64,000 bases of DNA from an uncultured Brachyspira sp. (GTDB lineage: Bacteria > Spirochaetota > Brachyspiria > Brachyspirales > Brachyspiraceae), in the NCBI RefSeq assembly GCF_944388875.1, contig NZ_CALXKQ010000001.1, positions 124,001 through 188,000 of the forward strand, written 5' to 3'. Of the stretch, positions 21,352-24,869 are shown piece after piece. The notes under the pieces are model-generated. The model did not search any database. It was not told where the DNA came from and saw only the letters and a program-made list of their open reading frames with translations. The translations under genes were made by a program, and so were the position numbers. The number at the start of each line of letters is the position of its first letter. The stretch's first letter is position 1.

Positions 21352-21380
21352 TTGACAAATACATTCTTTATTAGTATAAT
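21352..21380 (+). promoter_or_regulatory. Consensus promoter producing a leaderless Rpn mRNA
   Basis: TTGACA (21352-21357), a 17-bp spacer and TATAAT (21375-21380) match the sigma-70 consensus perfectly. The predicted +1, seven bases after the -10 hexamer, is 21387, the A of the in-frame ATGGGTAAA (codon 3 of the longest ORF). No Shine-Dalgarno is present. See the matching promoter at 23896. Confidence 0.8.
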
Positions 21381-21386
21381 ATGTAT

Positions 21387-22253
21387 ATGGGTAAAAAATT
21401 AAATACTGCAAAAATAAAACATTTTAATCCTTTGAATGATTATTTTATGCGTTACATGTTTGCTAAAAAAGGGCATGAAAATATATTAAAAGATCTCATA
21501 AATTCTGTGAGAATAGACTCTAATCAAGAAACTTTTGAAGATATAGAAGTACTCAATACTTTTAATCTAAAAGAAAATGTTCTTGATAAAGAAAGTATAG
21601 CTGATGTTAAAGCAAAAACCAAATCAGGCGAAACTATTATTATAGAAATACAAAGAATAGGCAATCAGTCATTTATATATAGGAGTTTATATTATTGGGC
21701 TAAAACCTACTTTACAAATTTAAAATCTAAAGATATATATTCAGATTTAACACCCGTAATAAGTATTAATATTTTGGATTTTAATTTGATAAAAGGTATA
21801 GAAAAGCCGCATAGCTGTTATTTCATTAAAGAGTCAGAAACTAATCATATATTGACCAACCATTTAGAGATTCATTTTTTAGAACTTAGAAAATTTAATA
21901 ATAATAACAATTTATATGATGGATTATCAGATTGGTTTACATTTTTAAATTCAAAAGATAAATTGGAGGATACTATGGAAATATTAGTTAAGAAAAATCC
22001 CATAATGAAAGAGGTTTATGAAGAGTATAACAAATTTGTTAATAGTAATGATTTATATAACGGCTATAGTAATTATGAAAGAGATTATTTTAATGTTCTA
22101 ATGCTTAATGAAGAGCGTATAAAGGGTATAAAACAAGGCGAAATAAATAAAGCAAAAGACATAGCACTAAATTTAAAAAATATGAATATGATGAGTAATG
22201 AAGATATAAGCAGAATAACAGGTTTAAGTATAGATGAAATAAAAAAATTATAA
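21387..22253 (+). CDS. Rpn-family PD-(D/E)XK nuclease (recombination-promoting/transposase-like)
   Basis: A 288-residue protein of the Rpn/PDDEXK_2 family. The start is set at the ATG at 21387 because the promoter places transcription there. The N-terminal nuclease domain has FNPLNDYFMRYMFAKKGHE, then the catalytic Asp in SIADVKAKT and the E-x-Q of IIIEIQRIGNQ, which is the Rpn variant of ExK. YRSLYYWAKTYF and IHFLELRKF follow, matching the family. The C-terminal module is a KQGEINKAKDIALNLK helix plus a small HTH-like unit (ISRITGLSIDEIKKL) shared almost base for base with the gene at 23931. E. coli Rpn proteins promote RecA-independent recombination in vivo. Confidence 0.87.
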   Translation: MGKKLNTAKIKHFNPLNDYFMRYMFAKKGHENILKDLINSVRIDSNQETFEDIEVLNTFNLKENVLDKESIADVKAKTKSGETIIIEIQRIGNQSFIYRSLYYWAKTYFTNLKSKDIYSDLTPVISINILDFNLIKGIEKPHSCYFIKESETNHILTNHLEIHFLELRKFNNNNNLYDGLSDWFTFLNSKDKLEDTMEILVKKNPIMKEVYEEYNKFVNSNDLYNGYSNYERDYFNVLMLNEERIKGIKQGEINKAKDIALNLKNMNMMSNEDISRITGLSIDEIKKL

Positions 22254-22277
22254 TAAAAAAATACTTGGGAGTTATTT

Positions 22278-23408
22278 ATGTATAAATACGAAGATTTTAA
22301 AATATCAATATATGGACAAGAAGAAAGTATTATAAATATAATTTCATATTTATATAATAATCAAATTTACAATAATAATACATCTGGATATTTAAATATA
22401 GATATATATTGTCCCCATCCAATTGCTTGCTGTTCTAATATTTATAATGTAGTAATTTCTACTAGAAATATAAATGAAATTTATGAATCTTCTATTAGAA
22501 AAAAATTTAATGGTGGTATTTATTATGATAAATACGGATTTGATAAAGAAAAATCATATTCACAAAACTCTAATAAATATAAAAGTATAATTCAGTTTAC
22601 TGAAGAATTTGTTAAGATTAATGAAAAACATTTTAATTTGCTTAAACTATCTTTAAAAAATTTCTTAAAAATTAATAATATACCAATTATAAAAGATAAA
22701 GAATGTAAGTCTAAATATGGTCGTACTCATTATAATTCGGAATTCTTTCGTTATAGCTATAGAAATAATAATGATGGATATTTTACTTATATTGATGAAG
22801 GCATAAAAATTCTTTTAGTTTCATTAGCTGTATATATTGAAAACAAGTTATATTACAGTACTAATATTAATGATTATAAATGCGATGAAGTTTTTACATT
22901 AGATGATGAAAATAATGAAATTCCAGAATCAGATGACAACAAAACGAATAACGAGATAAATACTGAAACTATTAATGATTATAAAGAGGAGACACCATCT
23001 TCTAACGATACAGATAAAAATATTTTGGACAATGATATAGTAAAAAAACTGTTTATTAAATATATTGATAATGCTAAAAAAGGAGTATTGGAATTTGAAA
23101 ACTCTTTTAAAAAGAATGAAAATATAAAAGATGCTGATAAAAAAGAAGCTGAAGAAAAGATAAAAGCTGCTAATTTCTTTATTTTATCTGCTGAGTATAA
23201 TATAGAAAAAGAAAATGATGCAACGAAATTTATAAATAGTTATAATAAAACTATAGAACAAATTAACAGCGATTTTAATAATATTATGAATAGGTATAGA
23301 AAAATATCTACTCTGGTATATGTAATGGATGTTGATATGGAAGATTTTAATGATGTATATATACCTAAATTCGATATTAATAACATATTGAAAGATTTAC
23401 TTAATTAA
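22278..23408 (+). CDS. Hypothetical protein in the Rpn locus
   Basis: A 376-residue protein with no recognised family. Residues 1-210 form a mixed domain opening with YKYEDFKISIYGQEESIINI and including a CPHPIACCSN cysteine/histidine patch. Residues 211-250 are an acidic Asn/Asp/Glu-rich linker. From 250 to the end there is a charged helical, probably coiled-coil region (FKKNENIKDADKKEAEEKIK). It has no signal peptide. A GGGAG ribosome-binding site lies upstream and only 24 bp separate it from the Rpn gene, so it is probably co-transcribed with the nuclease. A partner role is inference. Confidence 0.55.
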   Translation: MYKYEDFKISIYGQEESIINIISYLYNNQIYNNNTSGYLNIDIYCPHPIACCSNIYNVVISTRNINEIYESSIRKKFNGGIYYDKYGFDKEKSYSQNSNKYKSIIQFTEEFVKINEKHFNLLKLSLKNFLKINNIPIIKDKECKSKYGRTHYNSEFFRYSYRNNNDGYFTYIDEGIKILLVSLAVYIENKLYYSTNINDYKCDEVFTLDDENNEIPESDDNKTNNEINTETINDYKEETPSSNDTDKNILDNDIVKKLFIKYIDNAKKGVLEFENSFKKNENIKDADKKEAEEKIKAANFFILSAEYNIEKENDATKFINSYNKTIEQINSDFNNIMNRYRKISTLVYVMDVDMEDFNDVYIPKFDINNILKDLLN

Positions 23409-23895
23409 TTTTTGAATTATATATTTTAAACAAATACGTTCCATCAATATTAAACTTTATAGAAATATTATCAGCTTTTTTGCCGCACAAAAAAGCTGCA
23501 AAAAACGCACATACTACAGTTTAATACCTTAAATTTTAATAAACAATGCAGTCCTTTTGCTTCTCGCCTGCCAAAGGCGGGCTTCTCCTTATACCAATAC
23601 TTGACAGTACTTCCTTCAGTCGTAAAAGGACTGAAGTACAGACCATGTGCTTCGCCACAATTAATAAATAAAATTAGTTTTGAAACAAGTCTAATATATA
23701 GTAATTATTTTTTATAAAATTTTCTACTGTAATATAGCTTAAATCAAAAATAATTATATATTTTTTTAATATCTGAGATCCAACATTCGTGTAATGATTT
23801 ATACATTAAGATAAAAAATACACAACATATAAAAATTATTATTATAATTTTTGAATTATAATAATTTTATCAAATGATTTTGAAGCAAGCCTATT
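23409..23895. repeat. GC-richer hairpin island between two Rpn genes
   Basis: This non-coding stretch carries three strong hairpins: CAGCTTTTTTG/CAAAAAAGCTG (23472-23498, perfect 11-bp stem), GCCTGCC/GGCGGGC with an AAA loop (23566-23582, 7 bp, one wobble) and CTTCAGTC/GACTGAAG (23614-23636, perfect 8 bp). AGTCCTTTT near 23550 can also pair with AAAAGGACT near 23624. The GC content is far above the surroundings. No ORF of note fits it. It looks like a decayed or structured mobile repeat. Confidence 0.6.
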
Positions 23896-23924
23896 TTGAC
23901 AAACTAAATCATTTTTAGTATAAT
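23896..23924 (+). promoter_or_regulatory. Consensus promoter producing a leaderless second Rpn mRNA
   Basis: TTGACA (23896-23901), a 17-bp spacer and TATAAT (23919-23924), then exactly six bases before the ATG at 23931, so the predicted +1 is the A of the start codon. No Shine-Dalgarno is present. The spacer ends TTAG/TTTAG in both Rpn promoters. Confidence 0.85.
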
Positions 23925-23930
23925 TAAATA

Positions 23931-24869
23931 ATGAAAGAGATTAACAGACTTAATGATTTATTTGTACGATATCTAATTGGTATAGAAGGTGATGAGGATA
24001 TATTAGAAAATATTGTTAATGCCGTTTTAAATGATGCAGGCTTTGAATCTGTTGGAAACCTTGAAATTCTTAATCCTTATAATCTGCCTGAAAATGAAAA
24101 TTTAAAAGAATCAATAGCACCGAAGGTGGGCAGACGCCTTGATGTTAAAGCAAAAACTAAAGACGGTAAGAAAGTGCTTGTTGAAATACAATTAGTAGGC
24201 AACAATAATTTTATAAAAAGGATATTATACTACATAGCTAAAAATATAGCTTCTGAGTTAAAAGAAAGTGATTTATACATTAATATAAGCCAGATGATTA
24301 GTATTAGTTTTATAAATTTTAATTTAGATATTGGAAGTGAAACTGATATGAAAAGAGAGCATAAATGTTTAACATTTGCTGATATTAACAATCCCAGCCT
24401 TAGACTAGACGATTTTCAGATACATTTTATAGAGATTAAAAGATTTGAAGAAATATTAAAAAATGCTAGTACTAATGACTATCTCAAAAATAAGATTTTA
24501 TCTTGGATTGATTTTTTTACAACAAAAGATTTAGAAAAAGATATTAATAAACTTGTAGGAGGAAATACAATTATGAGTAAGGTAATAGATAAATATAAAA
24601 GATTTGTAGCCGATGAAAAGGAAATGTCAGCTTATAATGAAAGAGATACTTTTCTTTACGGACAGGCTGCGATGCTCCAGTATGAAAGAGAAGCGGGAAA
24701 AAAAGAAGGTATGGAGATAGGATTTCAGCAGGGTATAGAGAAAGGTATAGAACGTGGAGAAATAAACAAAGCCAAAGACATAGCACTAAATTTAAAAAAC
24801 ATGAATATGAGTAATGAAAATATAAGCAGAATAACAGGTTTAAGTATAGATGAAATAAAAAAATTATGA
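23931..24869 (+). CDS. Rpn-family PD-(D/E)XK nuclease, second copy
   Basis: A 312-residue paralogue of the protein at 21387. The opening is NRLNDLFVRYLIGIEGDEDI. The catalytic Asp is in RRLDVKAKTKDGKK and the E-x-Q in VLVEIQLVGNNNF; IHFIEIKRFEEIL follows. Before the C-terminal module it has a run of GM/GI-type repeats (EGMEIGFQQGIEKGIERGE) typical of this family. The last about 36 codons are nearly identical in DNA to the first copy, whereas the nuclease domains have diverged strongly. Confidence 0.87.
   Translation: MKEINRLNDLFVRYLIGIEGDEDILENIVNAVLNDAGFESVGNLEILNPYNLPENENLKESIAPKVGRRLDVKAKTKDGKKVLVEIQLVGNNNFIKRILYYIAKNIASELKESDLYINISQMISISFINFNLDIGSETDMKREHKCLTFADINNPSLRLDDFQIHFIEIKRFEEILKNASTNDYLKNKILSWIDFFTTKDLEKDINKLVGGNTIMSKVIDKYKRFVADEKEMSAYNERDTFLYGQAAMLQYEREAGKKEGMEIGFQQGIEKGIERGEINKAKDIALNLKNMNMSNENISRITGLSIDEIKKL

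Follow-up and report, generated by a model that had tools for sequence, protein, structure and literature searches.

We analyzed a window of 64,000 nucleotides (nt) from an uncultured Brachyspira sp. (assembly GCF_944388875.1, contig NZ_CALXKQ010000001.1, positions 124,001 to 188,000; coordinates below are those of the window). The window holds two rpn genes, each of which appears to specify a full-length PD-(D/E)XK nuclease toxin, RpnL, and a shorter C-terminal product, RpnS. The features at the 5' ends of the two genes are as follows.

21352 to 21357, plus strand: -35 box TTGACA of rpn copy 1, read from the sequence
21375 to 21380, plus strand: -10 box TATAAT of rpn copy 1, read from the sequence; invariant in 78 of 78 aligned Brachyspira rpn promoters with a distance of 6 nt to the start codon
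21381 to 21386, plus strand: 6-nt discriminator ATGTAT between the -10 box and the start codon of rpn copy 1, read from the sequence
21387 to 22253, plus strand: RpnL copy 1, 288 amino acids, PD-(D/E)XK nuclease toxin with a predicted leaderless start (PF12784, E = 1.5e-45; TIGR01784)
23896 to 23901, plus strand: -35 box TTGACA of rpn copy 2, read from the sequence
23919 to 23924, plus strand: -10 box TATAAT of rpn copy 2, read from the sequence
23925 to 23930, plus strand: 6-nt discriminator TAAATA of rpn copy 2, read from the sequence
23931 to 24869, plus strand: RpnL copy 2, 312 amino acids, with a predicted leaderless start (PF12784, E = 4.6e-33)

Both proteins score well above the family cut-offs, with 156 and 115 bits for copies 1 and 2 against PF12784 (cut-off 27.4) and 118 and 93 bits against TIGR01784 (cut-off 52.1). 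The catalytic positions D63, E77, and Q79 are invariant in an alignment of 11 rows that includes both window copies. A sequence search of the PDB with RpnL gave no informative match.

Each gene begins with TTGACA-N17-TATAAT-N6-ATG, with the ATG at 21387 in copy 1 and at 23931 in copy 2. These positions confirm an initial annotation of this DNA, which had described a perfect promoter placed 6 nt before each start codon. Its observation that a Shine-Dalgarno (SD) sequence is missing at both RpnL starts is also borne out. A -10 box about 6–7 nt before the start codon together with no SD marks a candidate leaderless gene, and both window copies show this combination. In silico, a TATAAT located about 10–12 bp upstream of the start is an accepted marker of leaderless genes in bacteria (PMC3160421). 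The transcripts of both copies are predicted to begin on the RpnL start codon. In copy 1, codon 1 of the longest open reading frame (ORF) is an in-frame ATG at 21381 that adjoins the -10 box. Because it abuts this box, it could not be started from the copy 1 promoter; codon 3, at 21387, is therefore the sensible start and the sole one that the promoter can serve, as the initial annotation had maintained.

Rpn genes of Escherichia coli encode both a toxic full-length nuclease, RpnL, and a C-terminal antitoxin, RpnS, made from an internal start (Zhong et al. 2023, PMC10327210). Corresponding internal starts are found in both window genes.

21965 to 21969, plus strand: internal SD GGAGG, 5 nt before the RpnS ATG of copy 1, read from the sequence
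21975 to 22253, plus strand: RpnS copy 1, predicted antitoxin of 92 amino acids from the internal ATG (sequence; analogy to PMC10327210)
24557 to 24562, plus strand: internal SD AGGAGG, 10 nt before the RpnS ATG of copy 2, read from the sequence
24573 to 24869, plus strand: RpnS copy 2, predicted antitoxin of 98 amino acids, read from the sequence

An in-frame internal ATG with a strong SD, located at 55–78% of the gene, is present in 69 of 78 full-length Brachyspira rpn genes, compared to a background of 10 in 366 genes. The RpnS start lies at codon 184–215 and its SD is GGAGG or AAGGAGGT, usually 4–5 nt from the ATG, while the residues encoded across the SD differ (LEDT, LEAS, KEVI, MEEI, and KEAI). 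Most of the rpn genes lacking a strong RpnS SD have AAGGGGG at the same place. RpnS lengths fall mostly into two four-residue series (91, 95, 99, 103, 107, 111 and 92, 96, 100, 104, 108, 112, 116), as the published four-residue repeats that account for tail length variation in E. coli Rpn predict (PMC10327210). SD-like internal RpnS starts are likewise present in the Spirochaetota loci tested outside Brachyspira. Both window genes thus look like Rpn genes-within-genes toxin–antitoxin (TA) loci in which a leaderless-looking RpnL start and an SD-led RpnS start share one transcript. By analogy to E. coli, RpnS would serve as the antitoxin in Brachyspira.

We inspected 92 rpn 5' ends in Brachyspira; these genes are related by descent, so the counts are not independent events. 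A genus-wide comparison of the spacing, which the initial annotation had proposed as a check, came out in its favor. A perfect TATAAT lies 6–8 nt before the ATG in 87 of the 92, with exactly N6 in 78 and N7 or N8 in 9 more (six and three, respectively), and none of these has an SD of at least 5 nt. In one further gene (L015), TATAAC-N7-ATG is followed by a frameshift. Across the 78 N6 promoters TATAAT never varies and T occupies position -1 in 74. Positions -6 to -2 are variable, giving 35 different hexamers, and it is the length of N6 that is conserved. No conservation was detected beyond -35 in these 78 aligned promoters, where the conserved block starts sharply. The spacer between the -35 and -10 boxes alternates between 16 and 17 nt, and the distance from the -10 box to the ATG equals 6 in 13 of 15 non-redundant families. 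Broken rpn copies still keep the promoter. All 88 tabulated rpn starts use ATG, the codon strongly preferred by leaderless initiation (review PMC9031893). T precedes the start in 83 of these 88, whereas 51 SD-led ORFs of this genome have 25 T, 25 A, and 1 C at that position. T(-1)A(+1) is a favored transcription start-site dinucleotide, and the excess of T at -1 is as expected if the A of the ATG is +1.

The promoter–ATG geometry of the Rpn genes is neither a product of chance nor typical of this genome. As a background we used 800 kb of the same genome together with the window (864 kb). This DNA contains 33 perfect TTGACA-N16/18-TATAAT promoters, 27 of which lie no more than 200 bp from the start of an ORF. 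Six of these 27 lie at 6–9 nt from the start, among them distances of 6 (four cases, all Rpn), 7, and 9, and the others at 26 nt or more. We also scanned the ATGs of the first 60 codons in 607 ORFs from this genome, each 150 codons or longer. TATAAT-N6-ATG occurs at any such ATG in only 6, of which 4 are Rpn. In the same sample an SD-like match of at least 4 nt is found at some early ATG in 400 ORFs, which makes the initial annotation's remark that most other genes carry an SD roughly true. The looser pattern TTKACW-N16/17-TATAAT-N6/7-ATG is found at 36 places genome-wide, compared to 2 for a reversed-pattern control; about 25 of the 36 are Rpn genes or fragments of such genes. Across 26 Brachyspira genomes, promoter-N6-ATG occurs at 451 places (17 for the reversed-pattern control), and its count per genome tracks the number of Rpn matches (411 in total, r = 0.87), with rpn copy number ranging from 0 to 40.

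A few non-Rpn genes also show promoter-N6/7-ATG (L171, L159, and L145). The L171 gene, named from its sequence rather than by a profile search, is presumably methionyl-tRNA formyltransferase (fmt). This enzyme supplies initiator tRNA, which is said to stimulate leaderless translation.

Outside Brachyspira, the RpnL start is SD-led in Treponema-like loci, Desulfobacterota, Planctomycetia, and Synergistaceae. A leaderless-type RpnL start, TTGnnn (TTTACT in L223)-N17-TAnnnT-N6/7-ATG with no SD, is found in further Spirochaetota (L222/L281, L223, L229/L254, L235, L250–L253, L255, L260, L263, L271, and L285) and in one KSB1 genome (L256); these apparent cases involve weaker hexamers than in Brachyspira, the genus for which a genome background was measured. 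We left L264 and L270 unclassified, because in both the TATAAT belongs to the region of an SD-led ATG. The starred branches of a quick protein tree force at least 6–7 switches between leaderless and SD-led starts. In E. coli O157, rpnB is leadered, with its main transcription start site (TSS) 76 bp upstream (PMC10469882).

The same layout is encountered at other, unrelated toxin-first TA loci of Brachyspira. In a HicA clade from six genomes (L194, L328, and L330–L332 with exact N6; L329 with N5) and in BrnT from three genomes (L206–L208), a leaderless-type promoter stands on the toxin gene: the toxin ATG has no SD and is preceded at 6 nt (at 5 nt in one case) by TATAAT or TAAAAT, and the next gene is the antitoxin with a strong SD. 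Most other HicA genes in Brachyspira are without this geometry. We considered and rejected leaderlessness as a general rule for the toxin-first TA operons of Brachyspira, as Gp49/HigB-like toxins have SDs; a search for PF05015 yielded no good member. A leaderless toxin with an SD-led antitoxin is a recurring layout in Brachyspira, and not a rule.

Taken together, these observations suggest that each rpn gene of the window probably gives two products from one mRNA by two start mechanisms, with RpnL leaderless and RpnS SD-led from within. The promoter, its spacing, the lack of an SD at RpnL, the strong SD at RpnS, and the conservation of all these features are observed directly. We infer from them the exact transcription start, leaderless translation, the antitoxin function of RpnS, and the regulatory consequence. 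A strong sigma-70 promoter would start the mRNA on, or within 1–2 nt of, the A of the RpnL ATG. Full-length toxin would then be made by leaderless initiation, and SD-led initiation at the internal in-frame ATG of that mRNA would yield RpnS. During normal growth, SD-led initiation would prevail over leaderless initiation, leaving RpnS in excess, and conditions favoring leaderless over SD-led initiation would shift the balance toward free RpnL. Leaderless initiation could also just hold RpnL low. The initial annotation had also read the geometry as leaderless, and the geometry does predict leaderless RpnL mRNAs; what it overlooked is the internal SD-led RpnS start, which gives the geometry its likely purpose. 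Its suggestion of low translation that depends on growth stage or stress is conjectural.

According to a review (PMC9031893), leaderless initiation proceeds on 70S ribosomes, is reportedly inhibited by initiation factor 3 (IF3), and is reportedly activated by guanosine tetra- and pentaphosphate, (p)ppGpp, an inhibitor of SD-led initiation. That review treats the MazF stress-ribosome model as disputed, and our proposal makes no use of it. Toxin release from rpn loci could be stress-dependent. More tentatively, it is possible that a toxin and an antitoxin in one frame, set apart by initiation mechanism, make the rpn gene a sensor of translation initiation itself. If so, anything that lowers SD-led relative to leaderless initiation would lead directly to toxin release, for example a build-up of (p)ppGpp, a drop in IF3 activity, or a phage that interferes with SD-led starts.

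Several points weigh against the two-mechanism proposal. Our limited literature search turned up no 5'-end mapping, ribosome profiling, or proteomic data for Brachyspira. Four Brachyspira rpn genes (L030, L032, L099, and L138) are without the promoter–ATG geometry. Rpn is leadered in Treponema, Desulfobacterota, and E. coli, and leaderlessness is therefore unnecessary for Rpn function. Promoter-like sites with at most 2 mismatches are found upstream of RpnS in 33 of 80 genes, compared to 18 of 80 in a control stretch, and RpnS may also be transcribed from an internal promoter, as it is in E. coli.

We weighed three other explanations. In the first, which we consider doubtful, a promoter joined to an AUG is the shortest host-independent unit, and the arrangement serves the mobility of a cassette rather than the balance of toxin and antitoxin. 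Such a unit would work after transfer, since leaderless AUG mRNAs are widely translated. Rpn genes do move horizontally (PMC10327210), and the 0–40 copies per Brachyspira genome and the sharp beginning of conservation at -35 fit such a unit. However, Rpn genes of Treponema and Desulfobacterota have SD leaders, and Brachyspira HicA and BrnT orthologues share the layout together with SD-led antitoxins.

Shared descent, in which the promoter of a single ancestral rpn cassette was inherited through duplication and transfer and the spacing is a frozen accident under no current selection, seems unlikely to us. All Brachyspira Rpn fall within one well supported tree group, the sample holds only about 15 non-redundant families, and the promoter persists even in broken copies. 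This bears on the initial annotation, which had taken the repeated spacing in divergent paralogues as a sign of selection: the window copies are indeed divergent, at 49% protein identity, but the whole family shares the arrangement and they are not independent inventions. Nevertheless, there is no conservation beyond -35, the spacer and N6 have diverged, and the -35/-10 length has changed, yet the distance from the -10 box to the ATG stays at 6. The geometry also occurs with other hexamers (TAGATT, TATATT, TATTAT, and TACCAT) in Rpn of other Spirochaetota and KSB1, the tree requires at least 6 start switches, and HicA and BrnT have the same geometry.

It is also improbable that RpnL mRNA is leaderless but RpnS comes mainly from a separate internal transcript, with the balance set by transcription as in E. 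coli, all of whose rpn genes have an internal TSS (PMC10327210): a perfect TTGACA-N17-TATAAT does stand 103 nt ahead of RpnS in L016, and other genes carry sites close to the consensus, but upstream of RpnS the window copies have only 3-mismatch sites, no more than the AT-rich control stretch gives.

The window copies show further features within and between the genes. A GC-rich in-frame insert, GCACCGAAGGTGGGCAGACGC (APKVGRR), occupies 24117–24137 in copy 2, immediately ahead of the catalytic Asp in the KESI-LDVKA motif. The insert is also present in L017, L024 (two), and L016. With at most 3 mismatches allowed it has 6 matches genome-wide, 5 of them within Rpn genes, and it resembles a small mobile or palindromic element that keeps the reading frame. 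The last 37–38 codons of the two copies (22137–22250 and 24756–24866) share about 95% DNA identity, allowing for one extra ATG codon, compared to 67% for the bodies. Tails are more alike than bodies in other paralogue pairs as well (L011/L023, L010/L014, and L020/L022; for example, body 0.63 and tail 0.89), which suggests tail swapping in the RpnS/oligomerization region of rpn paralogues. Between the copies, a 376-amino acid gene (22278–23408) matches no family in Pfam or NCBIfam, and the loci compared show no conserved linkage of it to Rpn; its one relative elsewhere in the genome (L045, 50% over 210 amino acids) is not Rpn-linked. A GC-rich intergenic repeat at 23560–23660 (CTCGCCTGCCAAAGGCGGGC...), with relatives in L048 and L052, is possibly related to the APKVGRR insert.

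RpnL and RpnS levels vary for reasons described as unknown by Zhong et al. (PMC10327210). The rpn DNA itself suggests a simple means to set and switch the RpnL:RpnS ratio, in up to 40 copies per genome. With leaderless and SD-led products of opposing activities in one frame on one mRNA, these genes would offer a clean natural test of the purpose of leaderless initiation. The geometry also predicts the correct start codons of hundreds of Brachyspira rpn genes.

Rpn TA systems, leaderless TA mRNAs in Mycobacterium tuberculosis, and single genes that give two proteins, one of them leaderless, are already known. A leaderless toxin with a nested SD-led antitoxin, fixed across a large family, was not found in the literature searched. 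E. coli Rpn, described as a family of TA and anti-phage loci, is similar in being a multicopy, mobile PF12784 nuclease with four-residue steps in tail length and an internal SD-led in-frame start that gives a C-terminal small protein (Zhong et al. 2023, PMC10327210). It differs in that O157 rpnB mRNA is leadered, and a leaderless RpnL start is unmentioned in the cited E. coli rpn paper. In M. tuberculosis, TA pairs are enriched among leaderless mRNAs (32 of 37 pairs; Cortes et al. 2013, PMC3898074), but toxin and antitoxin are two separate genes and a quarter of the genome's genes are leaderless, whereas the Brachyspira geometry is rare outside Rpn and the two products share one reading frame. 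The PvuII restriction system, through its C.PvuII control transcript (PMC2997769), similarly uses a leaderless start in the timing of a DNA nuclease system, although there the leaderless gene is the activator and not the nuclease. Finally, Shigella virF (PMC5101355) yields two proteins from a single gene, one full-length and one N-truncated, and here too one of the two is leaderless; in virF the short form is leaderless, by way of an internal promoter, whereas in Brachyspira rpn it would be the long form.

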